Below the pieces are notes generated by a model. The model was not told the DNA's origin, made no database searches, and saw only the letters and a list, made by a program, of their open reading frames with translations. DNA of 64,000 nt, taken from positions 23,611,474 through 23,675,473 of the forward strand of contig NC_061786.1 of NCBI RefSeq assembly GCF_022458985.1, written 5' to 3'. This DNA comes from Mugil cephalus (Eukaryota > Chordata > Actinopteri > Mugiliformes > Mugilidae). Position numbers and translations under genes: made by a program. Position 1 is the stretch's first letter, and every line of letters starts with the position of its first letter. This document shows, piece after piece, positions 8,504 through 46,646 of the stretch.

Positions 8504-8504
<1 letters not shown>

Positions 8505-10620: not shown

Positions 10621-10629
10621 AATGTCTCC

Positions 10630-14406: not shown

Positions 14407-14648
14407 TTATCTTTTCCTATTGTTGTTGTTTCTATTGTTCAGGACTTTCAGGATTTCTTTATACTCCTTGGTCTCTGAGGAGTAGACCATCCTATTTTCC
14501 AGCCACTTCATAACACGTTGATGCTCCTCCTCCCTCAGGATGCCCAGCTCTTGGTATCGGTCCACCATCAGTGTGTCTCCAACGTTGTGGTACCACCGGA
14601 CTCCTTCTTTGGACAAAGTATCAGGTTTTGTACCGCGTTCTGATATTC
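14407..14648 (-). CDS. SecA-like gene exon 10 (last coding exon)
   Basis: Acceptor GTCTTCCAG|GAATATC; stop codon at 14,409-14,407. It encodes residues 2214-2293 and ends with an Asn/Arg-rich tail. A diverged homologue is at 39,182-39,368. An ATTAAA poly(A) signal variant lies about 70 bp downstream (14,341-14,336), unproven. Confidence 0.8.
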
Positions 14649-17600
14649 CTGGAAGACACACGGGTAAAGAACAGAAAGTTTTACTTTAAACTGGTCTGAC
14701 CTGGTAAAAATCTGCTCAAACTATCTGGAAATGATCAAACAATAGCGGAACAACTCAATCCCTGCATCTTCCTTCTCTGATCTGAATCGTTTCTACACTG
14801 AGCTGGGAGCTCCAGTCTCCATGCTCTGTGGAGAACCCCATCAAACACATGAACCTGAAATATTGTACATATGTGTTAGTTAAATCGTTAAAATGAGCCA
14901 CTCTTCCACATCTGAGTGAGTCCTTGTGTCCAGTGTGTGAGTCTGTGAGTCCTTCAGACTAAATGTTCCTGGTAACAGCTGATCAGAGTCTAATCTGATC
15001 CCATTCAGATCAGAACCAGCTGAGTTGTGAGATGTTGGTGGTTTCCTCTCATCAACTGATGCTACAACATTTCTACTGGATGAAGTTCAGGACTTTGACT
15101 TGTTCCTAAACATTCATCTGGTTCATCGTTCCAAACTCTTTAGAGATGGTTGTGGAACCTTTTCCAGCCTGATGAGCAACAACAACTCTTTTTCTGAGCT
15201 CCTCACAAAGCTCCTTTGATCTGTTGTCATCACACACTTCAACACAAACATGAGACAAATTCCTGATTCATAGAAACTGAACCAGGACCTGAGTTTCATC
15301 ACACTGATGGAAACACTTCTGAACAGGACATAAATATCTGCTGATGTTTTTAATCATTGTTAGATAGACAGACAGATGTACCTGCATCCTTCCTAAGCCT
15401 CTCTGACATCTCTGGATTGGCCGTGATCAGCGACCACTTGATCAGTTTCTCCACATTTCCGCTGACAGCAGCCTTAGCCAGCATTTCACTGTAAGAACAA
15501 GAGAGAACAGAAGGAGTTTAACATGTGTCTCCAGCTCAGGCCAGACACAAAGGATTCACCCTCACCTGATTCTATGGCCCTCTATGGTGTGACCGGTGGT
15601 CAGAGCCAGTCTGTGGTGATCTGTGAGGACCTCTCTGGTGAGCCCTCGGTTTCCTTTTTCATTCATCAGCTTCAGAAGTTCTGGGCGCTCCTCGGACAGA
15701 CTCTGTTTCAGGTGTCTGTTCTCCTCTTTCTGCAGCATCTCGTTAGCCATCTTGAAGGACTTTATGGGCGGGATGTGGTCGGCGTTCACAGGGGAGTTGT
15801 TCTTCTTCACATTGTTGTTGTTGTTGTTGTTGTTGGGCTTATCTTTGTTCCGGACTCCTTTTACACTTTTGGGAAGAAACACGTCTCATTTAAACTAGAA
15901 TGTGTAGGAAGTCATGTCATTGAGCAGCTGTATTATTACTTACTCAGGCATATTTCCAACCAGACCAAGCTTGTAAGTATTAATGATCTTGATGTCGTCC
16001 TCAGTCAGACCACCTGTGCTCATCTTGTTCAAGTAGTCCTTATACATTTCTCTGGTCTGGTGTTGTGTCTTCTTGCCTCCTCCACACAACATATATTTTC
16101 TAGCGGTTTTGTAAGTGTTTTCATATCCTTTCTGCAACTTCAGAACAGGGGCGTATCTGTGGAGGTTTTGTTGAAGCTGAGTGGAGATGATAAATAATCA
16201 GTTTTTCTAGATCAATTGTAAAACATGTCCACGTAGTTGGACGATATACGTTTGGGCTTTGAAAACAAGAAATGATAAAATATCAAATAAATCATTATAA
16301 ATATGTAAAACTAATACTTTGAAATATTCCCATAATTTTTGAGTATAGAAGATTTGCATTCACGTCACAACCCCTAGCTTTAGCATAAATGATGCTATAC
16401 AATACTATAACATTAAAAGGATGACGAGGAGTGATCACAAATATTTAGTTTGTTTAATTGTTATTTATTGTTGGAACTGAAATAGTTCCTGTCGGCCGTA
16501 ACTACGACAACCTCCTCAAACTTATCTGACAGCCCTCCAGAATGGAACTTAAGAAGTAACTTACGGTTTGATTTCATAAATAAATACAGCATAAATTGAT
16601 ATTAGCTGACACTAAATGTGAACCACAACACCAGGTTTCTGTGCCTGGATTCCAGTTGTTTCTTCTAATGCAGCGATACATTTGCTTCTCTTCTCTTTGG
16701 CAGATATCTGTAAAAATATAAAGTATGTCTCTGACTGCTTTTCAAATCTGTTGGTTCAGTCAATCACACAACAGCTCTTTACCTTTTTTAAAAAAAAAAA
16801 ATAATAATTTAGACTTTAGATGCTTTTAGAGATTGTGATTCCAACTAATGCCGCTATGCTAATGCTATCTCCATATTCAACTATCAATTTCTGCCACTCA
16901 GTGGCTGAACCACAGAGACTTTGCTCTTTGACTCTGGCTGTGACGTCACATGCCCTCTATCCTGTAGTAGTGTCACATCCACAAAATATAAAAAAACACT
17001 GATGTACCATGAAGTTTTGGATCCGTGTGAATACAATGCGACACAAACAATATACAACTGTGCTGGCTGACTCCCATGCATAATAACTTAAAAAAAATAA
17101 TAAAATAAGTAAATTAAATACTTTTCCATTAATGAAGCTAGTGTCTCATAAGCTGTTTATAGTTAGCCGTTGTCATTTAATGTTTTATCTTTTAAAAATA
17201 AAGACTTACTGAGTTTTTGACTTCATTGCGAAGACTTGTTACCTCACCCGTCACATCGCCTGTGTTTCCGTTCATTGCCTGAGCAACAGCGTGATAAAGG
17301 CAGTTTTTCCTTTCTGAATCTACTGGGACAACGGTGCCATCTGGTTTCTGGATTTCAAAATGTCCAGTGTGTGGGCTTGTCTCACCACGCATCCGTTTGG
17401 ATAACCAGGAGAAAACCCCTGCTCTGTAGAAGAAGAAATGTTCCAAAGTGAAAGAGGAAGATGGTGAAAAGACACAATGCATCCATGAGAATCAGCGTTA
17501 GACACACACACAACACATAATACAATAACACAACATAAACATTATGTCCTCTGAATAACTTCTTCTACCATCATTTAAAAAGTATCTGATGCCACTCACT

Positions 17601-20600
17601 GTTCGGGATTTTCCGGCTCCTTCGTCAGTCGCAGTACGATGTCTCCGGCTGAGGCGTTCTTCCCTGGATAATATTCCACTGTCAGCTTCTTCCCATTTTC
17701 GTCCACCATAACCACTTTGATGCCTTTTCCTTGGAGACAGTCACTCTCGGTGAGGACGAGGATGTCCAAAGCTGTCGCTGGGTGGTCAGCATCACAGATG
17801 TTATCAATGTAACTATTGAGGACCTCACATTCGTCCTCTGACAGAGGCTCACATGGACGTTGGGTACAATTCTTCATTTGGTTGTTATACAACTGGTTGT
17901 CAAAGAAGCTCTGAGTGTCAGTCCGGCCCAGTAGATTACTGACGGCTTCGCCAGCTTTTTGGTTGATTTTAGACACGCACGTTTTGGTCATGAACGAGGT
18001 CATGTGCCTGGAACAAGCTTCAATTAGTGCATTAGAAATGCTTTGTGTGATGATGTTGAGGAATTCGTGTTTGAGGCGTTTCACTTCGGACAAATTTCGT
18101 CTATCATTCAGGTCGTCCGTTCCTTTTGTTAGTTCATTGATGGTTTTCAAGAACTGAGGCACAAAGGTTTCATTGATGAGCGTCTCTGTAGAAAATGATT
18201 TCAGTATTTGTGCACACAGTGTGATGTATTGAGCTGATTCCACACACATCTTCACCGCCTTCATTCGATTGAAGTTTTTCTGACTCTCAACGTGTTGCAT
18301 TACAACACCAGAGACCTGAGACAAGGTATCCAGGACCTTAGTGACCGTGGTGCATTCAATCATGAGGTCAGGAATCACTTGTGTTGTCATCACATCCACT
18401 GACTGACGCATCTGTTGTTCACATGCACGGTTAATTTTGAAGTCGTCCTCCAGGTCGGTGTCTGGTAATCCTGAACAGATGTAAACTGTCAGGGCGTTGT
18501 CCAGGTCATTGTTGGCTTTGATCAGTAAATGTACTTTTTCCTCAAAGTTGTTCCTCAAAACCCTCTGAAAAAGAGCCTTGAGTCCCTTGTCGGCAACGTA
18601 ACCCAGAGCTGCGACACATCCTTGTTTCCCTAGTTCCTGAACAGCATACTTAGTTGCATGTTTAAAAGAGGAAGATTCAGCAGCAGTAAAGACTGCACTA
18701 GCTCTTTGCTTCAGTTTGGCAAATCCTCCAAACACCAGAGACACGCCAATGCTGATGGCTTTGGCGATTGCCCACTGAGCCCAGTCAAAGCCACCTTCAA
18801 TCATGCCTCTAAGCCCCTGAATCATGTCGGACACCCCCTCACTGATCAATCCCTGTCCGAACTGACTGGCGGCACCACATGACAGGGCACAGACCAGAAC
18901 ACCTGCTACTATCTGAATGACGCCAAGCAAAAAACATGCCAGGGCATCGTAGCAGAACTTGGGTTTCTTTTTAACCTCAAACACGACGCCAAGTCCAAAC
19001 TCATAGAGCATCTTCAGCTCGTTGGTCGTTATCGGGTCTTTGTCTTTAGAGAGGTTGTAGACGCTGGAATCCTCAACTATGCCGTCGCTTTTGCTGCTTT
19101 CAAGCTGTGCAAGAGTTTTCAGTGCACTTTCAATGTACCCTTTCCAGGACTTGAAGATGTTCATCCTGGCTTGCATTTGGTACTGGAGGTTGCTGTTTTT
19201 GCGATGTGGAGGAAAGTCTTTTGTGATAGAAAAATTACAAAACATCACTGTGTTTGTTGATTCTGCCAGGTACACGTCCACTGAGATCTTGGCTTTCTCC
19301 AGGAATGCCTTTGCCTCTGATATGTAGTCTTTCTTTCTCAGGCTGATGGTGAAGTATGCTTGATTGTAGAGTGCTACAGCGCAGTACAAACGGTCACACT
19401 TTGCAGCACTCTGCCAATAACAAACTGCTCCATAGTCACATTTCTTTTTGTCAACGGAGTACAAGTCAGTTCTGCTTTTTGCCTGTTTGATATAATCATA
19501 AGAATTAGTGCTTTTCCCCTGTAGGAGACAGTCACCAGTGTTCTTCAAGTGCTTGCTGAGGTCTTCTTCCAGTGTTTTGATTTCATCGTGCCTGCTGATA
19601 TGTTCTTCGTGGAAGATGAGCCACAGAGCCCACGACTCTTTCAGAGAATTCAGTGCAATCTGATAATCAAACTTTGAGCGATGGATCCTAAAACACTCAG
19701 GAACATTCCTCAGCTTCATTTGTGTGATGTCACTTTTCTCTTCTTCTGAGTAATTCTTGTCAAAGTTACAAAGAAATTTACAAAATTTGGAGAAGAGATT
19801 TTCCTTCATTTCTATTTCAAGCAGCTCCTGTTTCTCCATGCTGTCTAAACGGCTGAGCTCATGCTCCTCTCTAAGGCGTCTCATGGTTTCCACCGATTGG
19901 CCTTGATAAGCTGGAGCTAGATGGTCTGTGTTGATTATCATCTGCACCATCCCCGGGTTTCCTTTGCGGGAGGTGCGTCCAAAGACCTGTCTCTCCACGC
20001 GGTGACTTCCAGGAAAGTACGTGAGAAGCACAAAGAGGCCGCCGCAGTCGTTCACTTCCGGACAAACATGAATGTCAGTCCCACGGCCACCGAGGTTTGT
20101 GGCGATGATGACGTGTCCTTTGCTGAAGTTCTGCTTCTCAATGTTGTGCTTTGCACTGATTGTGTACATGGTGACCTGTGTGGGTCTTTGCTGGCTGTTT
20201 ATCTTGGTCTTCAACTCATCTGCAGTGTTGACATCCTCTGAGATTATCAAGACAACTTGGCCGCGGTCTGCTGCTTTCCATGTAGTCTCACATATCACCT
20301 TGATCCACTCAGGGCCACCGCTCACCTGGACCGCCGGCAGCTCAACCACTTTTTTATGGCGGTGACAAGGAATGACGTAACTTTCTGTTTTGTAATGTCG
20401 TTTTAGGAATGTCTTCTCATCTGCACCACCTAATGTCCCAGAGACTCCGTAAATGCCTTTTCCACGGAGGTAGTTTTTAAAGAAGTGGACATTTGACATG
20501 TAGTTTGTTACAATAGATAATTGTGAAATTGCCAGCTGGTGCTTCATCTCCAGAAATTGTTGCAGTCCATCCCCCCATCGCTTGTTTTTCTCCAACACTC

Positions 20601-23600
20601 CACTGGCCTGGAAGTCCACGGGAATAATGGCGTCATACTGATGACTTTCGCTGAAACCTCCTCTGTCGGCTTCAGGTGCTTTATCGATCATGTACTCTCG
20701 TCCTTGTGTCATTTGGATGGCTCTTAAAGCGTTCTCAGCAAACACTGGTAACTGATTCTCAACATATGTTTTCAAGAACGATGGAACCACAATAAATCCT
20801 TTAGAATCCTCCAGAGAATCCAGGGAACATTCTGCAGAATATTTAATTTTAGTTTTGAGTTTGTTAACAGTTCCTTCAATGAGTGATTTCTCAGACATGA
20901 GTTGACAGGATCCACCATTCTCCAGTAGAAGCATGCTGACATCAGGATCTCCATGAGAGCTTTCTTTCCCGTACAGTTTGGCTTTGTTGTCCTCCAGTGA
21001 GTAGCAGTCTACAGCCACACTGTGACCCGTCACCCTCTCCAGATTATTCAGGATGTTATACTGTACTTCAGGTCCAGTTTTGGCCATGACTTTCTTTGTG
21101 GCTTTCCACGTTCCAGCCTCAGGGCTGTCATTGTTTGTTTGTGCCTGACACTCGGCTTCATTTATTTCTTTCATGTCCTGCTGTGAGTAAAACCCCAGCT
21201 CAACTCCGAGCTGCAGTACGTCATCTGCTGAGAAGTCTTTTGATTCTGAGCCCATCACAGCCTGGACTGTAGCCTTGTGAAACTGCTGGATCCTGGTTCC
21301 CCACTGGATCTCCCCCGTCTCAAACACTTCTATTGGCCGACAGGCAGACATCACGGCCCATGTGGCAGCCAGGACTTGCTCCACGTGCCTCATTCCACTG
21401 GCCTGGTGTGAAAGAAAAGTCACCTGAACTCCACTGTCCAGCGTCATGTAGTCCACTTCATCCACGACTACACACTCAAACGCCCTCGGCCCTCGAGTGG
21501 TTTTCCTCTCAAACTGTTCCCGGAGTGAATCTGCTGCGAAGGTACTGACTGTGCCATAAACTATCTGCTTGCTATATGCCTCCTCGATCAGTTTGTCGTG
21601 AGTGTCAGGACCACATGTATTTATGTTTGGTGGAGGCACAATGGACGATGTCACACGAAACATGGAGTATAATTGTTCCCACTGTTCTTGGTCACGGATT
21701 GCGAGTAAAGGAGAGCTGGTGACGATGTCGACCTTCGTCCCTCTGATGGCCTGGATCGTAGCAAACATGGCTAAAACACAAGTCTTGCCTTCTCCAGTGC
21801 CGATTTCCAAGACACAACCTCTTTGGTCCTTGGACTGTGCCAGCAGCAGTAGAAGTAAAGAAGCAAGCTGAGTGGGTCTTGGGAAGTATCCTTTGACTTC
21901 TTCACCACTCTGAGACGTGAACGTGGTGCATGTCTTCACAGCTATAGACAGTCCAACCAGGTTTTCCTTGAGATCATCAGAGTTAGGTCTGGAAAAATCT
22001 AAGGAAGTTGTCAATCTTTTAACTTGATCGATCATCGGTGCATTCAAGACCTCATGTGTCTTTCTGGGCAGCTCTGCCTCCATGTGTCTTAGTATGTCTT
22101 CAAGCAGCAACAGGAGATGTCCAGGACAGTTTGTGTCCTGCATCTCACTCAGAATAGTGTCTACATCTTTGTCCATCTCGTATGAAGCACAGCCTTGTAT
22201 GAACTTGACAGGATGTTTGTCCTTCAGCGCAGACAGAGCATCGATGCAGCTCAGCCTGTAGGTACACACCTTGTGGAGGATCTGTGAAACCACTCCCTGG
22301 TCCACGCTTAAGACCTGTCCAATGAAAAGTTTGATTTCCTTTGGGGTCCAGATGTTGTTGAACAGTATTTGACTGAGGATGTCTTTGCTTACTGGGGACA
22401 GCTGTGATGTCATTTTCAGAGCATTTACTAGAACCTGTCTGGCCAACGTTGGGTTGGAGACATGCAGCTGTTCTTGTAAACTGAAGATGAATTGAACCTT
22501 CTTGTCTTGTCCAGTTGTGAGGACCTGGTCAAACTCAGGGTCAGCCTCCAGAGTGACCTTCACCACCGCCTCCAGGACGTGAAGCTTCTCCGTCAGAGAC
22601 AGGTCCACGTATCCTGTGACCTGGTCCAGAGCTATGTGGGACCACAGTGGGATGTTGTTTGCTTCTAAATGTATTAAGGTCAGCTCATTTTGGAGAGTCT
22701 TCATCCTGTCCTCCAGGCTGCCCTCCAGGTCTTCACTCTCCTTGATCTGGTACGTCCTCAAAAGTTTTTCAAACTCCTCATTAACGTCAGCGAGCTGTGG
22801 AAATGAACAACGAGCACAGTGTTAATTAGTCTTTTGGTCGTGTGAACACACTTTCCTCCCTCCTTCCTTTCTCTGCTGTCCATTAGAGACAGCAGCTGAT
22901 ACAATATTCTACTGACCACATGGTGGCACTGCTGCTGATTTACAGACTGTTTAAAGTGAGACACACCAGGAAAAAACACAGTTCTTTCACCCACTGATCA
23001 ATTTTGAGATTTTTTACTATTTTGCTTCATTAACATGTCTCCTATCAAACTAGTCTTAGAAAAAGTGGTCAACCCCTAATTTACTCCTAAATTCTCTAAA
23101 ACTCATCTTTCTAAGTTGGCTAAGATATTTTTTTTTTATAATGACACATCATTCACACATTGATGCTTAGCATGGGGAGCAACTGGGGGTTTAGAGTCTT
23201 GCTCAAGGACACTTTCGGCATGTGGCATGTTCAGGGGATTGAACTGCTAAGCCTCTGGTTACCAGTACGGCTGGGCGATACTGGGAATTTTGGTATCGAT
23301 CCGAAACCAAGTAAATGGGTTAGTACTGCCGATACCGATTCTGTACTTTTACTTTTACTATACTTTTTTCTTGAAATGTCATGATCACTGAATAACTTCA
23401 TAATTTGGCCTTTAATTAGTTGATTGTGATTAAGATAAAATACAGGACAAGTATTTAGGCAAATAAACCATGTTCTTTTAAATTGTATTAAATTGTAATT
23501 AGTTAACAGTATAAAACTGAAATAATTCCCCTTTTACTACACATTGTTTTAGCCGTCAGTTGAGAAAGTGTGTGTGCAGCCCAGCACGAAAAGCAAAACA

Positions 23601-26600
23601 GAGGACAGGCTTATATTGTGTGTGTCTGAATTACCTGAATTACCTGAATTATATGAGTTTACGAGTATTCACGTTCTAACCATTTTTAACTCTTCAGCGA
23701 TCTGTTAAAGTATGCAGTTTTTGAATTACCATAACTCAATGGTTTGCGTTATTGACAGAATTGACAGAAGTGCTTTAGAAAAACGGTCAAAATAAGGAAA
23801 AGAAAAAATGTAACAAAAATATAAATAAAACAATGTAAAGAACATAACAACAGTGGAAAATAAAGGCAGTAATGACTATTTTCCACTGTTGTTGTGTGTG
23901 TATATAGTGTATGTAGTAGCAACAAAAGCAACAATGTAATAATAAATATAAAAACTGCTCAGAGAGGAAATGTTGACTTATTCATTTTCCACCACAGAGT
24001 GAGTCTGCATCCCGTGTAATTGTCTGCTCTTTCAAGTATTGATGCATTTCAATAACGGCATTATTTCCAGCTGTGCGATGCTGCTGGATGCTAGGACTTA
24101 AGGGTCAAACTCTGTCCACATCCACCTTTTAATACAGGTGAAGATGGAGAAACTCCTGTTGTGCACAGACTTGGAGAGAAGCTGCACTCGCATGAATTCT
24201 GTGACGAGTCATTTACTGGACCTATAGACGAGAAACTGTAACAAAAGTATCGATCCGATACTGATGCTGGCCTTGGTATCGATACTATGTATATTTAGAT
24301 CGATATTTCCAGCCCTAGAATGGAGGACACAGAGGACATGTTTACCTCGTCTCTCTCGATCACAGCTGATGGATCTTCCAGGACCTGGTGGAGAACCTGA
24401 GTTCTCTGCTGGTTGAAGTCTCTTCGTTGGAGGTTCAGATCTTCTTCAAACCTGCTGTGAGCAGTTTGGAGTTTCCTCCTCAAAGCTTCGTTCCTCTCCA
24501 TCTCTTCCTGGATCCTCCTCTCTCTCTCCAGCTCGGCGAGACGCCTCCTCTCCTCCTCAGCTCGTCTCTCTCTCTCTCGTCTTTCATTCTCTCGTCTCTC
24601 TCTCTCTCGTCTTTCATTCTCTCGTCTCTCTTCTTCAAGCCTCCCTGTTAAAAATAAATAAAGTTTTTTCTCCTTCAAATCTAACATCAGTCATCCCTTG
24701 GTGTAGCCTCCCTGGCCACTTCATTAGGTACACCAGTGTAATGGTTCTGATCTACAGTACATAATGTTAAGAACAGTGGTGATTGTGGAGGATGAAGTTA
24801 AACTGGATGGATTTGATGAGATGAAACATAATAGCACCTCCATTAATATTAACATTTCCATTTGCACCCTCATTAGAATGTGCACATTCACATTGCATCA
24901 TCTCCCTTAGCATCATGGTTTGAGCCTCAAACATCTTTACATTGAATATAGTTTTTTGATAGATTTTTATTTGTCTCTAACAAGCACAAATATCGAAACA
25001 AAGAATAATCGAGACAAGGAAAAAATAAATAAAAATAAAATCAATGACACTGTATTTAAGTGCAAGTTTGAGAAGGGGCTGAAGGACGAGCTTATCTGAG
25101 TTCAGCCCCCTCTTACATTGTCATATAACCTGCACATCCATGAGAATGTAAATCCTTTTAATCTTTAAACATTCCCTTTCATTATGAGACAACAACACCA
25201 CAAAATAGAATCCTTTCAAGAAAAGAAAAAATATATATAAAAATATATATCTACTTAGCTGTCTGATTTCTTATAACTGGCCAAGAGTTATGTTTTCATC
25301 TAGTTTATTCCACAGAGTTGAATGGATGGTAGGGTGTTTAAAATTATGAATCCCTTTCAAATTGTACGGTCCCTCCCTGACCATGAACATCTTTTGGATG
25401 TTGCTGGGTAGCAACTTGTTCCAGGCTTTAAAGTAAATCAGTCCAGTTTTAAATTTAACTAGGACCCAGAACTTTAAGATATTAGATTTTAAGAACAAAG
25501 GATTTGTATGATCAAGGTACCCAGCATGATGAACCATCCTTATAACTCTTATTTTCAACAGAATAGGACAGATATGCATTAATAAGAGGATCGTACAACA
25601 TTAAAAGTGATTTCTGATCTAAGACATGTTTAATTTTACCCAGTATTCCAATACTTCTGGATACTTTCGAGCACAAATATTTAATGTGAGGTTTCCAGCA
25701 GAGTTTCTGATCAATTATAAAATCAAGAAACTTCATTTCGTAGACTCTTTCAATTTCCAAATTTTCCACATCCAAACATACCTCTTGATTAATTTGACGA
25801 TTTCCAAATATCATGAACTTAGTTTTGTTCAGGTTTAATGTTCATTTATTTTCATCACACCAGCACTTTAGTTTTAGCAATTCATTTTGACCATCAATAA
25901 CAGCTGCTGTAAATCTTCAGGGAACACAAAATATTTGTGTCACCTGCAAAAACTATTATTTTTAAAATGTTAGATACTTTCCATATATCATTGATATATA
26001 AGATAAATAGTTTAGGTCCCAAGATAGAACCCTGCGGGACACCGCAGATAGTGTTCAAGTACCCTGATTTAAAGAAAATTGGTATTTTGGGTTTCGATCC
26101 CTACTTAATTGCCCTTCAAATGCTAATTCCCTTCAATCTGCCTTAAATTTGCCAAATTTGTCCTTTGCTGACATATATATTTATCTAATTCATAATCCTT
26201 CCCCCTTCGGAGAGTCCCTGAAGGCTTACAGGAGCACCGAAGCCTACTGGTACTTCACCTCAGGTTGGGTCACCAAGGCAAGACTTTATCACCTGGAGGA
26301 CCAAAAAATGTTTTTGATCATGGGAAAGGTAAGTTATGTATTATTTACTACTTTACGAGCTTTCTGGTTGATTAAAACTACGATGAACGTTACATTTGCT
26401 AGCTTGTTTTTTGGTTAGCTAACTAGTAATTCAATCTAAATGAAACAAAACGAAGTGATCTTAACTATCTGAAACAATACTGAAGCGTTGATTTATCGCA
26501 GCTATTTTTATTCTTTGACTAATATTGTGATTGTTAGCATGCTAACGCTTGGCTACGTACGTAAACATAACTTTTGTATAGTGTGTAGGAGTGTTCTGTG

Positions 26601-29600
26601 GAAGTCCAGTGACCCCTTTTAATGGCAGCAACCCACCTCTGTCTTCTTTCATTGTTTTTGGGGATATTGCAAAATGTAAGTTCTGTATTTTTAGCCTTAG
26701 CTCTATCGCAGCCTTACTTACGGTATCTGACGGTCCTAAAGATGGTGCTGTTGAGACGGTGTGACGTCACCGTGAAATTCATGAATACAGGGAATGTGTA
26801 CTGGTATATGAGATGAACATGAATTATTGCACATTATCAGTATCAATGTTTCAAATGTTTATAAATAATATGGGTTGTACACCCTCAGAGTGAGGAGTTA
26901 TACAGGCTAATGGCCTAAGGCAGGAATGATTTCCTGTGTCTCTGTGGTACATCGTGGTGTGAACAGTCTGGTACTGAAAGAACTCCTGTGTGTGGCCAGG
27001 ACGTCATGGAGTGGGTTTGACTCATTGTCCAGGATGGTTTTCACCTTGTGAAGCATTCTCCTGTCTGACACTGTCAGAGTTTCCAGCTTCACCCCCACAG
27101 CATCACTGGCCTTACGTATCAGTCTGTTCAGTCTGTTGGCGTCCGCTACCCTCAGCCTGCTGCCCCAGCACACAACAGCATAGAAGATGGCACTGGCCCC
27201 CACAGACTCATAGAACATCCTGAGCATAGTCCTGCAGATGTTATAAGACCTCATAGAAGACACCAACCGCCTTAGAAAATAGAAGCAACTCTGGCTCTTC
27301 CTGTACTCTGTGTTCTTCCCCCAGTCCAGTTTATTATTAATGTGAAGCCCCAGATACTTATAATCCTCCACTATGTCCACATTGACCCCCTGGATGGAAA
27401 CGGGGTCACCGGCACCTTGGTCCTCCTCAGGTCCACCACCAGCTCCTTAGTCTTTGTCACATTGAGCTGTAGATGGTTCTCCTCACACCATGTAACAAAG
27501 TTGTCCACACCAGCCCTGTCCAACCACTGCAGAGTCATCAGAAAACCTCTGGAGATGACAGGTCTCTGTGCAGGGGTTGGAGTCTGTGGTGTAGAGGGTG
27601 AAGAGAAAGGGACAGAGGACAGTCCCCTGGGGGGACACAGTGTTGCTGACCAGCCTGTCTGACACACAGCGTTGCAGGCACATATACTGTGGTCTGCCAG
27701 TCAGGTAGTCAACAACCCACGACACCAGGGGGGAATCCACCTGCATCAACATCATCTTCTCACCCAGAAGAGCTGGACAGACGGTGTTGAAAGCACTGGA
27801 GAAGTCAAAGAACATGACTCTCACAGTACTCGCTGTCTCGTCCAGGTGGTGTAGACACAGTTAAGTAGGAAGATGATGGTATCCTCAACTCTGAGCTGGG
27901 GCTGGTAGTTGAACTGGAGGGGGTCCAGATGCGGCTTGTGTTGAAGACATGCTGAAGGTCTCCACAGATCTGGGGGGCACAGGTTTTGAGCACCCTGGGC
28001 CTGACCCCATCAGGGTTCGCAGCCTTCCTGTATTCCCCCTTAGACTCTCTGATCTTATTCTTCAAGTGTCTCTGTATGTCTCTCACCTCCTTCTTGTTGC
28101 CAGTCCTGAAAGCTGTCTACTTCTCATTCAGGATGTCTTTTATGTCCTTTGTCACCCACAGCGTGTTGTTTGGGTAACAGTGGACCGTCTCTGCTGGAAC
28201 AATGCTGTCAACACAGAAGTTGATATAGTCCGTGACGCAATCTGTGAGCCTGTTGATGTCCTCTCTGTTCGGCTCACAGAGTGGCTGCCAGTCCTTACCT
28301 CAAAACATCCCTGCAGAGCCTCCCAAGCCTCCTCCAACCATCTCCTCACTGTCCTTGTGGTCACAGGCTGGATCTTTACCAGATGTGTACCAGGTTGTGA
28401 TCTGACCTGCCCAGCGGGGGGAGGGAGAGGAGCTGTATGCATCCTTAGCGTTAGCATACATCAGGTCCAGTGTCCTCTCCTCTCTGGTGGAACATTTCAC
28501 ATACTGAGTAAAGTTGGGTAGTGTTTTGTCCATGGTGACGTGGTTGAAGTGGGTCTGGGTCTGTAGCCGGGCTATGGCGGAGTGGATGACGTCACATGCC
28601 GACGCTGGGTTTGCAGAGGGAGGAACGTACACATGAACGTACACCCGTGGCAGATAATATGGATGGAGACCAACAGAAAACAGTTCAATGTCCGGGCTTC
28701 ACATGCGCTCTTTGATGGTAACATGACTAGGATTGCACCACTTGTTGTTAAATAGAACGGCTAGCCCCCCTCCTTTCCGCTTACCGGTCCCGGTGCAATC
28801 CCTGTCAGCCCGGACAGTCTGGAAGCCGCCGATGGAAACATTGTCATTAGGAATGTCCTGGTGCAGCCATGTCTCCATAAAGCACATTAAACTACAGTCC
28901 CGATACTCCTCTGTACCTCCTCTTATCTATTAGTCTATGTTTTCCTAGTTTCTCTCCTCCACTGATTTTTCTTTCCCCTGCATGCTTATGCTTGTTTGGA
29001 TTAAGCAAATGTTAAAATCCACATATAGAAGTATTTTTTGTTTTGTTGATATAAACAAACTTTCCATAGTTGTGGTAAATGTGTCGATGTTGGAACCTGG
29101 TTTTGTGTAAACACAGCTGATTAAATACATTTTTCATTCTCACTAATTCTATTTCTATAGTAATACTTTGTATTTTATCATCTATAGTTACTGACAAGTT
29201 ATCAAGCACCTTAAGAGAGACCATCTTCAACAAACAAAGCCACAGCACCACCAGGTCCATTTGATCTACTAGTACTATGAAACCCATATCCCTTAATAAA
29301 GAAATCGGATCCCCTCTCTCCATGTATCCATGTCTCTGAAACAGCAATGTTATCACAGGGTTTTTTAAATTATACTTTGGAAATTTGCATAAAGACTACT
29401 TCTATTAAAATGAATAATGGATATACCATGGTCATATTTAATAGTAGTATTAAATTGGTTTTCTGTGTAGTAGCAACAATTTGCATTGATGTTATCAAGA
29501 AGGTTTTCATCTGGATCTATGTAATGTTCAGCTTCTATCATGAATAGAGCGTAGAGCGTAAATAGTGCAGCACATACAACAGGAGCTATTTATCCCTGTG

Positions 29601-32145
29601 AATACAGCAAAGGTGGGAATTAAACTCCTAAATGCTTTCAAAATGTTCAAGTTGTTATATGCTCCTAATGCACACCCTGTTTGAATTCTCTGCTGCACCA
29701 TTTGGTTTATTAAAACCTTACAGTTGACAGTCCCAGTGGTCTGAATTTTGCCCTGTTTCTTGAGCTGTTTTGCCTTTATGGCTTTATCACTGATTTTCTT
29801 GGTAAGGTGCTCATTGGTGTAAATTTTTCTGCCCTTTAACTTCCTTCCCTGTCTAAGCAGATCAACTCTAGATTTCAAGATGGTAAAGTGAATAATTATT
29901 GCTGGTATGGTGGGCTTTTCCTTCATTTTCTTAACTGGTAGAGGGTGGCATGCCTCAATATTCGTAGCATCAATGTCAATGTCTTTGCCACGAAGAAATG
30001 CTGTTACCTGCTCCTCTGTAGTTTTATCATGTACATTTCTGCTCTCCACCCTGATGCCTCTCACCACTTGCAGGTAACTCTGTGGTTTAATCACCAGTCC
30101 AGAAATGATTATTTCGTTCATTCAGGAGTGCTGCTCTAAGTCATCAAGTCAGTTTTCTAAGTATTCAATCTTCCTATTATGTTCCACGTTTTTTCTTTTG
30201 AGTTGCTTTATTTCATCCAGTAGATCCGTTAGGATGGCCTGCTGCTTTGTGAAAGTTTTCATCTCACGTCATCATGTTCATTGCTGCTTTTAGCTCCTCC
30301 ATTGCATTGCATTGCATACCTTTGCCATTAGCATCCCCATTAGCATCTGTAGCATATGACTAAACATGTTCCTGCTGCACGCTGATGGCTGAAGGAGTTC
30401 TATCCTGTAGAGTCGCCACAAAAAAACACTGAGTTTGTAGCTACTCACCAAAGTGGAGACAGCGGTCGACTACATCGCCAGAACGTTTGTCGATCAGTTC
30501 AAAGTATTGACGGTTGGCGCTCTCCCTTAAGGTGTACGAATGTCCATCACAAGGACATCTGAGGTCCCATTCCCTGCGGTCTCCATAGCGGAGGGAGACC
30601 ACACCGTCGTGAGGCTGAATGCGCTGTGAACGCTTTTCTGAGATGGTGCCACACTGCGTCCGAATACCCTGACAACAGGACAGGAATCAACCAACAATCA
30701 CAAAAAAACAACAATAAAACTACAACAATATGTATGACTTAAATAGGTCTGAGAACAGGAAGCTATGACCAGATATATTCACCATCAACGAACCCACAAA
30801 TGTCTCACAACTGGTGTCTTTAGAATAAAAACTAGTATCCAGGTTGGTGGGTTCTAACCCAGAACCTTCAGCTGGTTAGATTAACTGGTGAATGTAGGTG
30901 TCTCTTTGGTTTAGCTCTGTCACAGACTGGATACCTGTTCAGGTGTATCTTGTCTCTGGGATTTATTTAAAAAAACAAAAAAACAAATATGTTGAAATAG
31001 AAAATCTATGAAACCAGAAAGAGAAGTAGCTAAAGGAGGTAAAGGGCTGAGCTAACCCTAAGCCTGACCTGAACCTGAACCAGTGGCTGTTAGATTCTTA
31101 TAAAACCAGAAGAAGTTTCCATCAGTCAGTGATTTAAAATCTTTTCTGTCTAAACAGAGCAGAGAACATGACTCTGGACCAGAGAGACCTGGAGGCCTGG
31201 ATGAGAGTTCACCATGGAGGAGACTACTTCCTGGACCAGGGAGACTTGGACAGGTCCAGGTCCAGCCAGTAAAACAAAAGGGAAGTACATGATTTTAATT
31301 TCCTCTGGAAACGCAGACACTTTCTAAACTCAGATGTTTCTCCTATTCAGAACCACAAATTTGTTTATGAACTTTTAGACGCCATCTTACTGAGGAGGGC
31401 GAGTGTTAACCAGTGGATGATGGATTAGCATTTAGCATTTAGCTAAAACTGTCCAAAAATGTAGTTCTCTTTTCCCTAATAAATGATCAAGGACAACACA
31501 GCAGCTGAGATCCAACTCTGGAAAGAAAGACAGAACTGAACTGAGCCAACAAACTTTAATAAATGAATATATTCATATATATATATTTTACTGTTACTGT
31601 GTCCAAGGAAAAATATCACAGATCATTATTCTAGTGGTATTCTTATAAAAATACTTGAAAAAAAGAAGTTCTGACTTTGGTAAAGTAGTTTGTTCACTTG
31701 TCTGTGGTCATCCAAAACCTGTAGACGTGTGATCGTTCTTATTTTAAACATTAACTAAATATCAAGCTGTAATGGACGTGGCCGTGATTGAAGAGGTCAA
31801 AGCCTCAATAAAATCCACCTGAATGTATTTAATATTTATTCTGTTCTTACTCTGTGTCTCAGTGGGATGTTTGTGAGTATCTTTTATGTATGTTTTTTAT
31901 TTTATCTGCGATGGATTAAGACAAAGACTTTAATGTGTGGACTGATGCTTAGATTTAGACTTAGACAGACTTTAATGATCCACAAGGGAAATGACTTGGT
32001 CTCTGTAGCTTAGTTACACATAAAAGTTTCTCTTAAGAAGCACACGTATAAAGAAAGAAGAAATAACACTCACGTCGCCTCTCAACTCAGTGCAGTATTC
32101 CCAGGTGTAGGGCGTCTCGTTGAACAGGGTGAAGGCGTTTCCCAT
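14407..32145 (-). CDS. SecA-like ATPase multidomain protein (spliced, nine coding exons)
   Basis: Coding exons, 5' to 3': 32145-32074, 30668-30449, 24644-24346, 22794-17600, 17423-17210, 16176-15944, 15865-15566, 15488-15382, 14648-14407; all junctions are GT-AG and in phase, giving 2,293 residues. The motor is SecA-type: Walker A GTGEGKT (529-535), DEVD (642-645), GVSGTLG (980-986), GGRGTD (1099-1104) and the arginine-finger motif with R1132, R1137 and R1140. SecA is the ATPase that drives bacterial preprotein export; what a vertebrate homologue does is unknown to me. Ahead of the motor are MGN, a Cys module and a charged helix (about 99-185). After it come hydrophobic stretches (1481-1504, 1538-1555), an OTU-like D1964/C1970 motif, eight Asn (2089-2096) and DHIPP (2107-2111). 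The exon at 22794 has no ATG at its open-frame start (codon TTG at 22761), which led me to the upstream exons. Splicing is inferred. Confidence 0.85.
14930..15350 (-). mobile_element. Transposon remnant in intron 9, copy B
   Basis: The minus strand at about 15,130-14,990 repeats the Tc1/mariner-like segment found at 5,100-5,290, including the SPDLHPVE-like region. It extends to about 15,350 with CCTTTTCCAGCCTGATGAGC, a phrase of a widespread fish DNA-transposon-like repeat. The left part recurs at 40,010-40,186. Confidence 0.5.
15382..15488 (-). CDS. SecA-like gene exon 9
   Basis: Acceptor TTCTTACAG|TGAAATG, donor GATGCAG|GTACAT. It encodes 35 codons beginning EMLAKAAVSGNVEKL, which continue the DHIPP-associated helical region. 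It is too short to be found as an open frame alone; phase matching with exons 8 and 10 supports it. Confidence 0.75.
15566..15865 (-). CDS. SecA-like gene exon 8 (poly-Asn and DHIPP module)
   Basis: Acceptor CCCAAAAG|TGTAAA, chosen because earlier AGs would bring in a stop; donor ATCAG|GTGAGG. A GTT/AAC microsatellite (about 15,813-15,836) encodes eight Asn. It is followed by ADHIPPIKS and TDHHRLALTTG, which resemble the conserved Asp-His and His segments of a DHIPP-type nuclease-like module known from bacterial polymorphic toxins. That likeness is from memory and untested. Confidence 0.7.
15944..16176 (-). CDS. SecA-like gene exon 7
   Basis: Acceptor CTCCACTCAG|CTTCAA, donor CCTGA|GTAAGT. 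It adds residues 2001-2077, a basic, mainly helical region with MLCGGGKKTQHQ. No family is recognised. The intron that follows is only 78 bp. Confidence 0.75.
16177..17209 (-). other. Intron 6 of the SecA-like gene
   Basis: 1,033 bp, AT-rich, with an A11 run at 16,790. No repeat family or internal exon was recognised. Confidence 0.5.
17210..17423 (-). CDS. SecA-like gene exon 6 (OTU-like motif)
   Basis: Acceptor TTCTACAG|AGCAGG, donor CTCA|GTAAGT. It encodes residues 1929-2000. The stretch VDSERKNCLYHAVAQAM resembles the catalytic Asp...Cys segment of OTU-type cysteine proteases (D..NCL..A). The histidine partner is not assigned, so protease activity is only a possibility. Confidence 0.75.
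17600..22794 (-). CDS. SecA-like gene exon 5 (motor exon, 5.2 kb)
   Basis: Acceptor TTTCCACAG|CTCGCTGAC, donor GAACA|GTGAGT; an in-frame TGA overlaps the donor, so an unspliced reading would end at 17,596. It carries the whole SecA-type motor (GTGEGKT, DEVD, GVSGTLG, GGRGTD, FGRTSRKGNPG) plus long helical regions and the hydrophobic segment at residues 1481-1555. An exon of 1,731 codons is very large for a fish gene and suggests that an intronless ancestor was captured or retrocopied. Confidence 0.9.
23150..23262 (-). mobile_element. SINE fragment in intron 4
   Basis: The minus strand contains GTGTCCTTGAGCAAGACTCT and TTGCTCCCCATGCTAAGC, degraded forms of the SINE body that is complete at 61,947-62,205. 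Confidence 0.55.
23263..24318. mobile_element. Non-autonomous hAT-like transposon in intron 4
   Basis: The ends are imperfect inverted repeats: CAGTACGGCTGGGCGATA on the left, and on the right the complement of CTAGGGCTGGAAATATCGAT. Both sides then carry GGTATCGAT and ATCGATCCGATAC words. This fits hAT elements that start CAGGGCTGGG. The 1.05-kb interior is AT-rich and encodes no transposase. Confidence 0.6.
24346..24644 (-). CDS. SecA-like gene exon 4 (charged helix)
   Basis: Acceptor TTTTTAACAG|GG, donor GACGAG|GTAAAC. It encodes residues 98-197, dominated by Glu and Arg in EEERR/ERRER patterns, predicting a long charged helix or coiled coil. The DNA holds a tandem 30-bp internal duplication (about 24,575-24,635), so helix length may vary between alleles. 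Confidence 0.8.
25250..26065 (-). mobile_element. LINE relic, RT part (element 2)
   Basis: The minus strand encodes CGVPQGSILGPKLFILYIND at 26,046-25,985, then FAGDTN where FADDTN is expected, then MKFLDFIIDQKLCWK and a GILGKIKHVL-like stretch. These are RT-domain blocks in the right order. Asp-to-Gly at the active site and frame breaks show it is inactive. It is probably the continuation of the fragment at 28,935-30,290. Confidence 0.7.
26190..26660 (+). other. Exon-like fragment of unknown origin within intron 3
   Basis: The plus strand 26,214-26,328 encodes GESLKAYRSTEAYWYFTSGW and runs into GGAAAG|GTAAGT, a good donor. A similar LKAYKS..AY.F..GWV segment is, as I recall, part of transposon-associated SWIM/YqaJ-type proteins in fish. 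It may be a captured exon or an element relic; the remainder is unassigned. Confidence 0.3.
26885..28930 (-). mobile_element. CR1/Rex1-like LINE (element 1), EN to RT
   Basis: On the minus strand, from 5' to 3', endonuclease blocks (METWLHQDIP, GGGLAVLFNN) and an FNHVT...TIDL-like block are followed by RT blocks FFDFSSAFNT, PQGTVLCPFLFTLYT, FSDDSAVV, EDYKYLGLHINNKLDW and FYAVVCWGSRLRVADANRLN. The order is complete but frames are broken and RT motif A has drifted. A plus-strand relative lies at 50,990-51,800. Confidence 0.8.
28935..30290 (-). mobile_element. LINE relic, ORF1-like and endonuclease part (element 2)
   Basis: The 197-codon minus-strand frame at 30,121-29,528 matches a LINE ORF1-type protein I recognise: EACHPLPVKK, LLRQGRKLKGRKIY and NEHLTKK. 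Endonuclease pieces follow at 29,356-28,945 (LLYVDFNI for LLGDFNI). Element 1 then interrupts, and RT resumes at about 26,065. ORF1 is still largely open. Confidence 0.65.
30449..30668 (-). CDS. SecA-like gene exon 3 (Cys-containing module)
   Basis: Acceptor TTGTCAG|GGTATT, donor TTTG|GTGAGT. It is open for 73 codons plus one base and has no Met, so a simple start-to-stop scan misses it. It contains TQCG, then RCPCDGHSYTL and, near the end, DRCLHFG. The four cysteines could bind metal or form disulphides; I do not recognise the domain. No equivalent exists in the paralogue. Confidence 0.75.
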
Positions 32146-32153
32146 AGCTCAGT
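32074..32153 (-). CDS. SecA-like gene exon 2 (start codon exon)
   Basis: Acceptor GAAACAG|ACTGAGC at 32,153; ATG at 32,145; donor GACGTGAGT after 32,074, phase 0. It encodes 24 residues starting MGNAFTLFNE. Met-Gly-Asn at the start fits an N-myristoylation signal, which would tether the protein to membranes. The paralogue at 49,867-49,905 keeps the same start. Confidence 0.8.
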
Positions 32154-32899
32154 CTGTTTCAGATTAAACAGACGTTGGACATTTATCTGGATACAGGTGA
32201 GATGAGACACACGCAAACATAAAGACATGATGTGACTCAGCTGAGGGTTTGTTTAAATGTATGGAATCAATGTTTGAAGCCTTCAAGACTCACAAGAAGT
32301 TTAGAAAGTTTCAATAATGTTTTAAAAGTCTGAAAAATAATAAAATAATAACCAGGACCCGTGTTCCTAAAGACTGAAAGAGCTGCTCCTGGGGCCAAAC
32401 TCTAAGACCAGAACCCTGATGTTCTCTCAGAGTTGATCCTAGATGGCGGTAGAGATGAAAGGTTCCTAAGGAAGGTTCTGCAGTGAGATGTGCTGAGAGC
32501 AGGGAGGAGAACTTTAAGAGGCTTAGAGAGGAGAACATGGTGGAAAGAAGAGGAGGAGAGATATTCTCCAAACACTGAATGATTGGATGGAGCAGGAATC
32601 CAACCCCTGAGACATTTTACCTGGTTAATACCACATGGATGAAGAGCAACAATGGTTTTAAAGTAGATCTGCTATTTATTTCTCTTCAGTCTTCATAGAG
32701 AGTTTAGCCTTATTGTGAAACGTCTTCTCTCAGTTCAGAACAAAGGCTCCAATCAGCTGATAACTCTCATCCTGAACCTGTTGATCCTGTTACTGCTCTC
32801 TATTAACCCATGATGGGTTTCCTCTTGTTTTCAGTAATAATAATAAAAAAAATAGATAGAAGAACTGGTTTTTAACTGAGAGGAAACATTAAAAGTTAC

Positions 32900-32935
32900 C
32901 TCCTGTACGAAGTCCAGTCCTGCAGCTCTGTCTCC
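32900..32935 (-). other. Non-coding exon 1 (5' UTR) of the SecA-like gene
   Basis: CAGGAG|GTAACT marks a donor at 32,900/32,899. The 5' end is set about 30 bp downstream of the TATA box and is approximate. The same exon and donor recur in the paralogue at about 50,759-50,790, which supports function. Confidence 0.6.
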
Positions 32936-32956
32936 TCCTCTGAGCACCAGATGACC

Positions 32957-32968
32957 TCCTTATAAAGA
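32957..32968 (-). promoter_or_regulatory. TATA box of the SecA-like gene
   Basis: Minus-strand CTTTATAAGGAGG about 60 bp upstream of the exon-1 donor. The equivalent TATA box is kept in the paralogous promoter at about 50,816-50,827. Confidence 0.6.
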
Positions 32969-39178: not shown

Positions 39179-39544
39179 TCAAATATTTTTCAGGACGTCG
39201 AGGATTTCTTTATACTCCTCGGTCTCTGAGGAGTAGAGCATCTTATTTTCCAGCCACTCCACAATACGTCGATGCTCCTTCCGCCTCAGGATCTTCAGCT
39301 GTCGGTATCGGTCCACCATCAGTCTGTCTCCAACGTTTTGGTAGAACCGGACTCCTCCTTCGGACAATTTGACTCCTTCCTCTTCCTCTTCCTCTTCTTC
39401 CTCTTCCTCTTCTTCTTCATCTTCTTCCTCCTCCTCTGCTTCCTCCTCTTCTTCTTCTTCTTCTCCTTCTTCTCCTTCTCCTCCTCCTCCTCCTCCTCCT
39501 CCTCCTCCTCCTCCTCCTCCTCCTCCTCCTCCTCCTCTTCCTCC

Positions 39545-39576
<32 letters not shown>

Positions 39577-39645
39577 CTCCTCCTCCTCCTCCTCTTCCTC
39601 CTCCTCCTCCTCCTCTTCCTCCTCCTTTGGCACATGACACATGAC
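39179..39645 (-). pseudogene. Last-exon homologue of the SecA-like gene with GAG expansion
   Basis: The minus strand at 39,368-39,182 encodes GGVRFYQNVGDRLMVDRY, WLENKMLYSSETEEYKEIL and a stop; roughly two thirds of residues match exon 10 of the intact gene. Between the position of the acceptor and this homology lies about 260 bp of GAG/GGA triplets (39,369-39,627), coding poly-Glu then Gly/Arg depending on frame. The flanking intron matches intron 9 of the intact copy. Confidence 0.75.
39369..39627. repeat. CTC/CTT trinucleotide expansion
   Basis: TCC/TCT triplets, pure at 39,478-39,535 and interrupted elsewhere. It lies in the exon-10 homologue and changes phase relative to it. Confidence 0.95.
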
Positions 39646-39659
39646 ACATGGGTAAAGAA

Positions 39660-40186
39660 CAGAGAGTTTTACTTTAAACTGGTCTGACCTGGTGAAAATC
39701 TGCTCAAACTATCTGGAAATGATCAAACAATAGCAGAACAACTCAAACCCTCTTAAACCACCTGACCCTCAGGTTAAAGGCTGGATGTTATAAATGAAAG
39801 GCCTCTGATCTGAGTTCTAATCGTTTCTACACTGAGCTGGGAGCTCCAGTCTCCATGCTTCGTACTTAGGAATGTTATGGCCTTTCTACATTTCTCCATT
39901 AAAATATCAAGTCAAGTGCTAAGAGAGAACCCCATCAAACACATGAACCTGAAATATTGTACATATGTGTTAGTTAATTCGTTAAAATGAGCCACTCTTC
40001 CACATCTGAGTGAGTCCTTGTGTCCAGTGTGTGAGTCTGTGAGTCCTTCAGACTAAATGTTCCTGTAACAGCTGATCAGGGTCTAATCTGATCCCATTAA
40101 TCAGATCAGAACCAGTTGAGTTGTGAGATGTTGGTGGTTTCCTCTCATCAACTGATGCTACAACATTTCTACTGGATGAAGGTCGG
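39660..40186 (-). repeat. Duplicated intron block with transposon remnant, copy C
   Basis: Matches 14,670-15,080 of intron 9, including ACTTTAAACTGGTCTGACCT, CACTGAGCTGGGAGCTCCAG and the Tc1/mariner-like remnant. The match stops where the element at 40,188 begins. Confidence 0.75.
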
Positions 40187-40187
40187 G

Positions 40188-41870
40188 GGTCCTTATCACA
40201 AAGCAGGTTCAGCAAACTCTGAGTCTAATCCTGAACTCTGAGTCGATCTACCCTGAGTTAAAAAACTCTGAATTTTCGGTTCCAGAACAATGGATTTGAG
40301 TTGGTTTAATCAACTTGGAGAAGTTTGACCGGGGTTAAGCGTGTGCCAGCATCAATGGAGCCCGGATTCAACGAGTCACCATGGCAACGGGGAAGAGGAG
40401 GCTACGGAGTGGAAATCCTAATGTGCTCATACGGCGAGTTTCAACACGTTTTTAGAAAGAAGTGCAACAGAGAGGGAGACGGCGTAGGATCAATGCGTTA
40501 GTTTAAATGTGGTTCTTTACAATCACAATAATATTACAGGGGAAACTGCTTAAATGGGAGCATATTCGTTTATTTCATAGGGGAGAAGCCACTTGGCAGC
40601 AGCTTAAGATGAAATATAAAATCATTGTTAAACAGGTCAGACCTCATGGAGGAACCTCATTCTGATCATGTTTTACACTGTGAAGGAAATATTAAGTGGA
40701 TATTTGACTGAGCAGTTGTTTTATCCACAACATGATGCTGTTTTCACACATAAATGTCTTCTCATCTATAATGTTCTGTTAAATTATTAAACCTGTTTAA
40801 ACTAACACAGACAGATGCAGTAAAACGGGTGATGGCCCAGCACCTCCACCTCTAACGGAGGCAGAGGAGCCCTGAGCCAGAATATTGGAGGTCAGTGTCT
40901 GAGGGAATCCCTGGAGGAGCTCATCCTCCTGGCCTGAGGAGTCCACCCCCAACACACAAGCTCCTTCATAAAATATAAAAGGCCTATACATATATTTTTA
41001 AGTCTATTCATACAAATATTTGTCTTTTTTTGTTTTGTCCCAACAGATTCTGATTGTACCGCTCAAAGATAATTGTCTATAAATGCTAAAACATATGTAT
41101 ACGTATGTAGAAGATAGATAAAGGTGTAAAATGGGCAGGAGTGACTTTGTGAAACTGGGAGCCTCAGGGAATTCCAAAGCTGCTGATGCAGGTGGATGAA
41201 CCTGAGGAAAAAATAAAAAGGTAGTTGGAATAGATCAAGATGCTGCACAGGAGTGAGGCACTCTGCCCCCTGGGCCACATGCTCCAGCTGATGGTGCATC
41301 CAGTGTCACGTGGCTCAGCAGCAGTGACAAAGACCATTTCTAATGGTGTAATTGGTTATAATGAGGGGCTGGTGTAGGGCCCCAAATGTAGGGGATGGAC
41401 AGAAGGTGTGACCTGTGAAGTCCCAAAAGTATAAAATATAAGAGCAGTAGCCCTTACACTTCACAGCGGGGTTGTGGTGACCTTTGTCCAGTCTGATGTT
41501 GCTCTCCTTTGTTGATGGCAGTAAAGATCACTCTGACGCTCTGAATGTAAACTCCTGATTATTTCTTCGAGACTTCAAGGAGAAGACTCCACCAGGCTGA
41601 ACTGGACATCTGCCAGGGACTATTATTATTTTTATATTTTAACAGATTTATTTGATATAATTTGACACAACAGTAGCTCAAACCAGAGGCAGCGGGATAA
41701 CTCTAGCCTGTTTCACAGAGCGAGCTAACTAAGCTCTCAGTCAGTTACCGTAGTAACAGACTCTGTGAACCTAACCTGGTCAGGACCTGGTTTATCTCAA
41801 TGAACCTCCAGTTTCTCTCTGTCTTTGATTTCCTCTTTCTTTCATTCATTCAGTCACAGGAGAGTTTGGG
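40188..41870. mobile_element. PIF/Harbinger-like element relic
   Basis: The left end (TTATCACAAAGCAGGTTCAG, then AACTCTGAG words) and the right end (about 41,750-41,830, with CTAACCTGGTCAGGACCTGG) resemble ends of a common fish Harbinger-type transposon. An AWQQLKMKYK-like segment (TGGCAGCAGCTTAAGATGAA at 40,594) fits its Myb/SANT-like DNA-binding protein. No intact transposase. Confidence 0.5.
40834..40910 (+). repeat. Inverted repeat arm 1 (77 bp)
   Basis: Reverse-complement match, about two differences, to 42,133-42,210. The loop is 1.2 kb. Confidence 0.85.
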
Positions 41871-41884
41871 CATAGCCTCATTCT

Positions 41885-42115: not shown

Positions 42116-42132
42116 GTCCATCAGGACCAGCA

Positions 42133-46645: not shown

Positions 46646-46646
46646 G

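Follow-up and report, generated by a model that had tools for sequence, protein, structure and literature searches.

A giant spliced gene with a SecA-type motor in Mugil cephalus and its relatives in animals, fungi and intracellular bacteria

The spliced gene and its exons

The 64,000-nucleotide window analysed here (Mugil cephalus, contig NC_061786.1, positions 23,611,474 to 23,675,473; all coordinates below are those of the window and, unless stated otherwise, of its minus strand) contains, between positions 14407 and 32968, a spliced gene for a giant protein with a SecA-type motor. Textbooks describe SecA as the motor of bacterial protein export, and animal cells are not expected to contain it. 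An open reading frame (ORF) at 17596-22821, with 1,741 residues between stops, carries GTGEGKT, DEVD, GVSGTLG, GGRGTD and FGRTSRKGNPG in SecA order. Nine coding exons, in which every internal boundary is preceded by AG and followed by GT, splice into a product of 2,293 residues plus a stop codon, exactly the length that a preliminary description of the locus had proposed. The public protein of this gene (LOC125024278, hereafter P0001; 2,148 residues, labelled 'uncharacterized protein') is itself a prediction and is 100% identical to residues 146-2293 of the rebuilt protein; therefore, six of the nine junctions, those downstream of residue 146, agree with the public model. The ninth would join a predicted non-coding 5' exon to the first coding exon.

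The two upstream coding junctions are not in P0001 and are backed by alignments of residues 1-100 with proteins of other fish, the best being P0010 (48%, E 3.8e-26). The database searches used the Mugil protein, a protein from an alphaproteobacterial metagenome-assembled genome (MAG) and a caecilian protein as queries, and the matches listed are the best 120 of 471, 120 of 153 and 120 of 307, respectively, so that all counts taken from them are lower bounds. An MG start was found in 55 of the 120 listed fish-search matches, with PY within the first 25 residues in 50 of these 55. Since related fish possess a matching N-terminus, the nine-exon model is more complete than the public one.

Read from its 5' end, the gene begins with a TATA-like box (TTTATAAGG, 32958..32966), the proposed promoter, at which an interferon-type motif was sought and none found, and with a predicted non-coding 5' exon with a GT donor near 32901; both were read in the sequence. 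Coding exon 1 (32074..32186, ATG at 32145) encodes residues 1-24 (MGNAFTLFNETPYTW) and is supported by the splice-site model and by the fish relatives mentioned above. Coding exon 2 (30449..30668, residues 25-98) holds an N-terminal domain starting MG...TPYTW, to which no Pfam family matched in four other fish. Coding exon 3 (24346..24644, residues 98-197) encodes a charged, coiled-coil-like linker and, like the exons at 15944..16176 (residues 2001-2078), 15382..15488 (residues 2178-2213) and 14407..14648 (residues 2213-2293, the last coding exon, with stop TAA), is supported by the identity with P0001. This linker appears to expand, since the proteins P0045 and P0067 of other fish carry many more units; a perfect 30-base tandem repeat of 2.4 copies lies inside the Mugil exon (24561-24631). 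The exon at 17210..17423 (residues 1929-2000) carries the GHFEI and NCLYHAV motifs of an OTU-like part, and that at 15566..15865 (residues 2078-2178) the NADHIPP and DHHRLALTTG motifs of a helical C-terminal domain. An alternative exon at 16707-16613, which ends in TAG and would give a form of 2,031 residues, was rejected: P0001 skips it, and its 31 residues retrieved nothing better than E 2.7 among the 267 proteins compared.

Between these small exons lies a giant one (17600..22794, residues 198-1928) that comprises a helical part, the SecA-type motor, a helical post-motor region, a hydrophobic segment and the start of the C-terminal part. The preliminary description had suggested that such an exon fits an intronless ancestor. 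This is supported, because the motor (residues 500-1150) and the post-motor region that matches bacterial relatives lie in this one exon, which holds all of the bacterial-alignable sequence.

The motor and the regions around it

The profile searches place the motor among SecA proteins. P0001 matched SecA_DEAD with 89.7 bits (cut-off 24.6, E 2.6e-25) and P-loop_SecA with 48.2 bits (cut-off 27, E 1.3e-12), while other profiles of helicase superfamily 2 (SF2) scored lower: DEAD 29.3 bits (8.5e-7), ResIII 21.1 (3.3e-4) and Helicase_C 17.6 (0.0046). The comparison of SecA with other SF2 profiles proposed in the preliminary description thus came out in favour of SecA. Within the ORF, SecA_DEAD covers residues 306-796 (20434..21906, E 2e-25), the first motor lobe, interrupted by an insert, and the second lobe, P-loop_SecA, covers residues 841-966 (19924..20301) with NLGGRGTD and QVFGRTSRKG. 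Walker A, Walker B (DEVD) and motifs III, V and VI are intact, and 24/24 aligned rows share GTGEGK, DEVD, GVSGTLG, GGRGTD and, in motif VI, the Q/GRT/RKG residues without variation. With 471 public proteins matching at E ≤ 1e-5, this invariance excludes, at the level of sequence conservation, a chance ORF as the origin of the gene. In addition, SecA accounted for 24 of the 24 sequence matches that the ORF had in the PDB (E ≤ 0.1). A Foldseek search with the AlphaFold model of the motor, which is only fair (predicted local distance difference test 67, poor domain arrangement), returned SecA in rows 1-35 (E 4e-17 to 1.7e-7) and then UvrB (7.7e-7), with TM-scores near 0.2, and VIA-align separated SecA (15.9) poorly from DinG (14.4), at root-mean-square deviations of 14-19 Å. 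Because of these low TM-scores and the slight separation of SecA from DinG, the structure backs the sequence result but adds little to it. PADLOC gave weak matches only, Cas3c (0.0021) and DinG-like (0.0096), in two of three proteins. As judged from its profiles and motifs, the motor is of SecA type and belongs to the SecA superfamily of SF2.

A 294-residue insert (20569..21450) separates Walker B (DEVD) from the motif III side, and inserts of 286-300 residues occupy this place, the position of the preprotein cross-linking domain (PPXD) of SecA, in 17/17 fish. The preliminary description had also named SecA_PP_bind (PF01043) as a profile to search with, and this profile did not match the insert in Mugil or in four other fish. 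The profile was recovered in 13/18 eukaryotic relatives (E ≤ 0.01) and in 2/16 bacterial or environmental ones (0.001). Compared directly, the fish insert profile and that of canonical SecA gave 0.1%; nevertheless, a chain of profiles connects them, from fish to amphibians (100%), from amphibians to an invertebrate set (98.3%) and from this set to canonical SecA (91.9%). Through its amphibian and invertebrate relatives, we infer that the fish insert is a diverged equivalent of the PPXD.

The region that follows the motor connects the fish protein with the giant SecA-like proteins of bacteria and invertebrates. In hhalign, the fish post-motor profile gave 99.1% (E 5.8e-19) with that of invertebrates and 97.4% (E 1.2e-11) with that of a bacterial set, against 0.1% with canonical SecA, and the pre-motor parts were not alignable between groups (best 7.1%). 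The hydrophobic segment (ALACFLLGVIQIVAGVLVCALSCGAASQFGQGLISEGVSDMI..., 'GLIsEGvsDmi', 18706..18945) is likewise common to bacterial and invertebrate giant SecA-like proteins. A hydrophobic peak was present in 8/8 fish, 5/5 amphibians, 7/8 bacterial or environmental members (the eighth is annotated as partial) and 7/7 invertebrates, where it is weaker in some (mean hydropathy 1.65-2.63), in contrast to the three canonical SecA examined, which are without it (1.13 or less). SecA_SW, the scaffold and wing domain and the third profile named in the preliminary description, is absent from every Pfam table made of fish and relatives: it was not matched in Mugil (E ≤ 1), in four other fish (E ≤ 5) or among the two tallied sets of 16 and 18 relatives. 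A structural equivalent of the domain may nevertheless be present. In its sequence features, therefore, the fish protein is not a SecA of the Sec pathway.

The ends of the protein are more variable. The N-terminal MG...TPY starts of fish have S or T at position 6 in 44 of 53 cases. Identity to Mugil is 57-71% in the motor and 29-53% in the C-terminal part, which is the same part within vertebrates and is shortened in many amphibian models. A Pfam OTU match to this part (E 0.0018) is under the curated cut-off. An HNH nuclease, considered for the DHIPP...HH end, was set aside because Pfam gave it no support.

Upstream of the gene, DNA comparison detected a second, broken tandem copy at about 39184..50846, also on the minus strand. 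Its blocks correspond to residues 476-688, 1133-1225, 1247-1772 and 2225-2285 and to the first-exon and promoter region, residues 689-1132 being absent, and their DNA identity to the gene ranges from 86 to 98.6%, with the main blocks at about 98%. Defence genes commonly duplicate and decay in this way. The window also holds several mobile or repetitive sequences. The intron between coding exons 2 and 3 holds a reverse-transcriptase fragment (RVT_1, E 1.4e-9, 27486-27860), and the stretch 26942-27586 is repeated at 51006-51669 with 88% identity. On the plus strand, a 212-residue open frame (45716-46354) resembles the reverse transcriptase of a long interspersed nuclear element, and long frames in three frames at 62413-63502 derive from the short repeat LLLCYSVTLYSVT..., a simple-repeat array and not genes. 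An Rfam scan of the window yielded a single tRNA (8832-8907, minus strand, 42.3 bits, above the gathering score) and nothing within the gene.

Distribution and evolutionary history of the family

A scan of genomes with the most conserved words of the fish motor retrieved one bacterial relative, whose frame in the alphaproteobacterial MAG spans at least 2,597 residues. As a query, this protein gave 153 matches at E ≤ 1e-5, and those listed comprise Rickettsiales, Ca. Bandiella, Ca. Arcanobacter and a Ca. Tisiphia endosymbiont among bacteria, insects, Daphnia, nematodes, rotifers, Hydra, mycorrhizal fungi, amphibians and fishes among eukaryotes, and many metagenome proteins. The matches listed for the caecilian query came from frogs, newts, caecilians, gar, paddlefish and teleosts; neither amniotes nor cartilaginous fish appear among the matches listed for any of the three queries. 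Lissotriton helveticus contributes at least 10 of the listed proteins, on contigs of one same size. In the fish search, Oryzias is represented by P0026 and P0029. In databases, fish and amphibian members are labelled 'uncharacterized protein' or, wrongly, 'Protein translocase subunit SecA'. Two scans of viral contigs found no relative. Phage records gave 24 matches, none of them over at least 80% of the query (20 of the 24 are listed), and those listed have 23-30% identity, two being annotated as SecA.

Some bacterial relatives are carried on plasmids, namely those of Ca. Megaera polyxenophila (5,225 residues), Ca. Bandiella woodruffii (2,966) and Legionella geestiana (2,947). On the 57-kb Ca. 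Megaera plasmid (L003), two genes annotated 'SecA-like domain protein' are neighbours, at locus 347-16024 (5,225 codons) and in record 36608-41377. In the alphaproteobacterial MAG (L001), three near-identical tandem genes of 228 residues (3275-5436, plus strand) lie directly upstream of the giant SecA-like gene and are possibly its partners or immunity genes.

Pfam domains found in 16 bacterial or environmental members include LysM (5), DnaJ (3), RNAse_A_bac (2) and RickCE_cat (2), and WHH, Colicin_D, Colicin-DNase, OTU and Ulp1 once each. Six members, picked for carrying such domains, were scanned singly: in four, the last domain is a nuclease (RNAse_A_bac twice, WHH and Colicin_D), ending 3 to 15 residues before the C-terminus, and the other two have an OTU and a Ulp1 domain, respectively, before the motor. 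The idea that all effector domains are C-terminal was dropped for this reason. To judge by this domain content, the bacterial and environmental members are built like polymorphic toxins and endosymbiont effectors. Published work counts OTU peptidases and SecA-like helicase-related domains among the effectors of Amoebophilus (PMC3482391).

For the phylogeny, 73 motors were selected from 230 motor segments, and support comes from quick trees with the Shimodaira-Hasegawa-like approximate likelihood ratio test rather than from bootstraps. A motif filter had removed 18 of 247 sequences, one of which, from Legionella geestiana, was cut by hand and kept in the 73-row tree; two long-branch rows were removed from a further tree. 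The five canonical SecA are split from the 68 family members by a branch with support of 100. The 12 fish (99) and the eight amphibians (98) are sister groups that together make up a single clade (100), and the vertebrate gene would thus be as old as the split between ray-finned fish and amphibians, if its descent was vertical. The Ca. Megaera plasmid protein is nested in a group of rotifers and Hydra (100), and a single clade of all 45 eukaryotic rows was rejected (p 3.8e-5). Therefore, on the evidence of these trees, the family has crossed between bacteria and eukaryotes, one way or the other, more than once. In contrast, the union of vertebrates with the main invertebrate clade was not rejected (p 0.43), so that a single acquisition by animals is possible. 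The gene is probably an old import into animals.

These results modify the view of the preliminary description that fish carry a captured or very diverged SecA-like ATPase. A bacteria-linked origin is upheld. Nevertheless, the gene is not a capture private to fish, since amphibians, gar, paddlefish, invertebrates, fungi and intracellular bacteria carry it, nor is it a diverged housekeeping SecA, because a fully supported branch parts the family from the canonical SecA and because it has its own non-SecA module.

Possible functions and comparison with known systems

Together, these observations lead us to propose, at roughly even odds, that this is a working vertebrate gene for a membrane-associated, ATP-driven conflict or defence protein of anamniotes, kin to the giant effectors of intracellular bacteria. 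What the protein is, as distinct from what it does, we regard as nearly certain. The giant protein would be derived from, or share descent with, such effectors. Its motor would hydrolyse ATP and move polypeptide as SecA does, and its N-terminus (MG, often with S/T at position 6) would be myristoylated and, together with the hydrophobic segment, hold the protein at a membrane. In the bacterial relatives, which would be effectors or toxins, the motor and the hydrophobic segment would assist in the delivery of the enzyme at the end of the protein. Anamniotes would have retained a domesticated version for cell-autonomous conflict or defence; its OTU-like part may cut or bind ubiquitin-type targets, and its helical end may be a nuclease.

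An alternative that we consider unlikely is a membrane-bound protein that unfolds or translocates proteins of the cell itself, for quality control or traffic; its OTU-like part would work on ubiquitin-type tags, and it would have no role in conflict. The motor motifs kept in all aligned rows, the insert present at the PPXD position in every fish and the long persistence of fishes and amphibians as one clade would all suit such a function. However, the patchy spread and the repeated bacteria-eukaryote crossing speak against it, and these, together with the decayed tandem copy, the many newt copies and the fast-changing end, are unlike housekeeping genes. Quite improbable, too, is a domesticated self-delivering effector, in which a SecA motor that came from the giant toxins of intracellular bacteria and is anchored by a myristoyl group and a hairpin would spend ATP on driving its own C-terminal enzymes, or a substrate bound to it, across the membrane of a microbe inside the cell or of the microbe's vacuole; if true, this would be an immune weapon that works cell-autonomously, by translocation, and has no known parallel.

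We give a small chance to a selfish or toxin-like element that spreads between bacteria and eukaryotes without benefit to fish. Its appeal lies in the toxin-like bacterial and environmental members, of which four of the six scanned singly end in a nuclease, and in plasmid carriage and repeated transfer; yet the single vertebrate clade, with fish and amphibians each monophyletic, is as expected under long vertical descent, and the motifs are invariant. Similarly doubtful is an SF2 nucleic-acid helicase that merely resembles SecA and acts on RNA or DNA, like RIG-I-like receptors or DinG, given the SecA_DEAD score, the uniformly SecA matches in the PDB and in the leading Foldseek rows, and SecA_PP_bind in most eukaryotic members. 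Contamination, assembly error or a chance ORF, for which the broken copy in the window could be invoked, is already refuted: many assemblies of fish and amphibians carry this protein on contigs of chromosome size, the gene has introns, and the public model is identical.

A conserved SecA-type gene family of ray-finned fishes and amphibians would mean that a polypeptide-moving motor from intracellular bacteria entered vertebrates and stayed. It would also join bacterial giant effectors, the SecA domains of phage WO and an unstudied vertebrate family in one testable lineage. Animals are not known to have bacterial SecYEG, and Oryzias offers a laboratory fish for asking what a SecA-type motor does without it.

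In comparison with canonical SecA (SecA1/SecA2), the fish protein has both motor lobes, all motifs in order and an insert at the preprotein cross-linking position; it differs in its giant size, in having no SecA_SW match and an insert not recognised by SecA_PP_bind, in its own post-motor module and in its separate clade. With the giant SecA-like proteins of Ca. Bandiella, Ca. Megaera, Rickettsiales MAGs and the L. geestiana plasmid, of 2,000-5,000 residues, it shares the succession of motor, post-motor region and hydrophobic segment, whereas the N-terminus (pre-motor profile 7%) and the ends (LysM, RNase A, WHH and colicin D in bacteria) are different. The polymorphic toxins and OTU- or SecA-like endosymbiont effectors of Zhang et al. 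(2012) match the bacterial members in their constant core with exchangeable terminal nucleases, but the vertebrate copies are spliced host genes. The helical C-terminal part has a weak Foldseek likeness to a bacterial DNase effector complex (PDB 9J9W, E only 0.12) containing TseN, a type VI secretion system effector of Acidovorax citrulli, where the matched chain B may be TseN or TsiN; no sequence match to TseN was found.

For phage WO of Wolbachia, a published report places the SecA domains of the eukaryotic association module nearer to proteins of eukaryotic invertebrates than to those of bacteria (PMC5062602). Single table lines mention a 'SecA DEAD-like' protein of Legionella fallonii among proposed transfers from eukaryotes (PMC4256840) and Daphnia (PMC5037449), and the excerpts of PMC11521996 and PMC6863919 concern ordinary secA or SecA. 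Searches of the open-licence literature gave, among the titles listed, no paper on a vertebrate SecA-like gene. The SecA-like domains of eukaryotes and of endosymbiont effectors are already in print, and what is new is the presence of this known motor in an unstudied vertebrate family with an architecture of its own.

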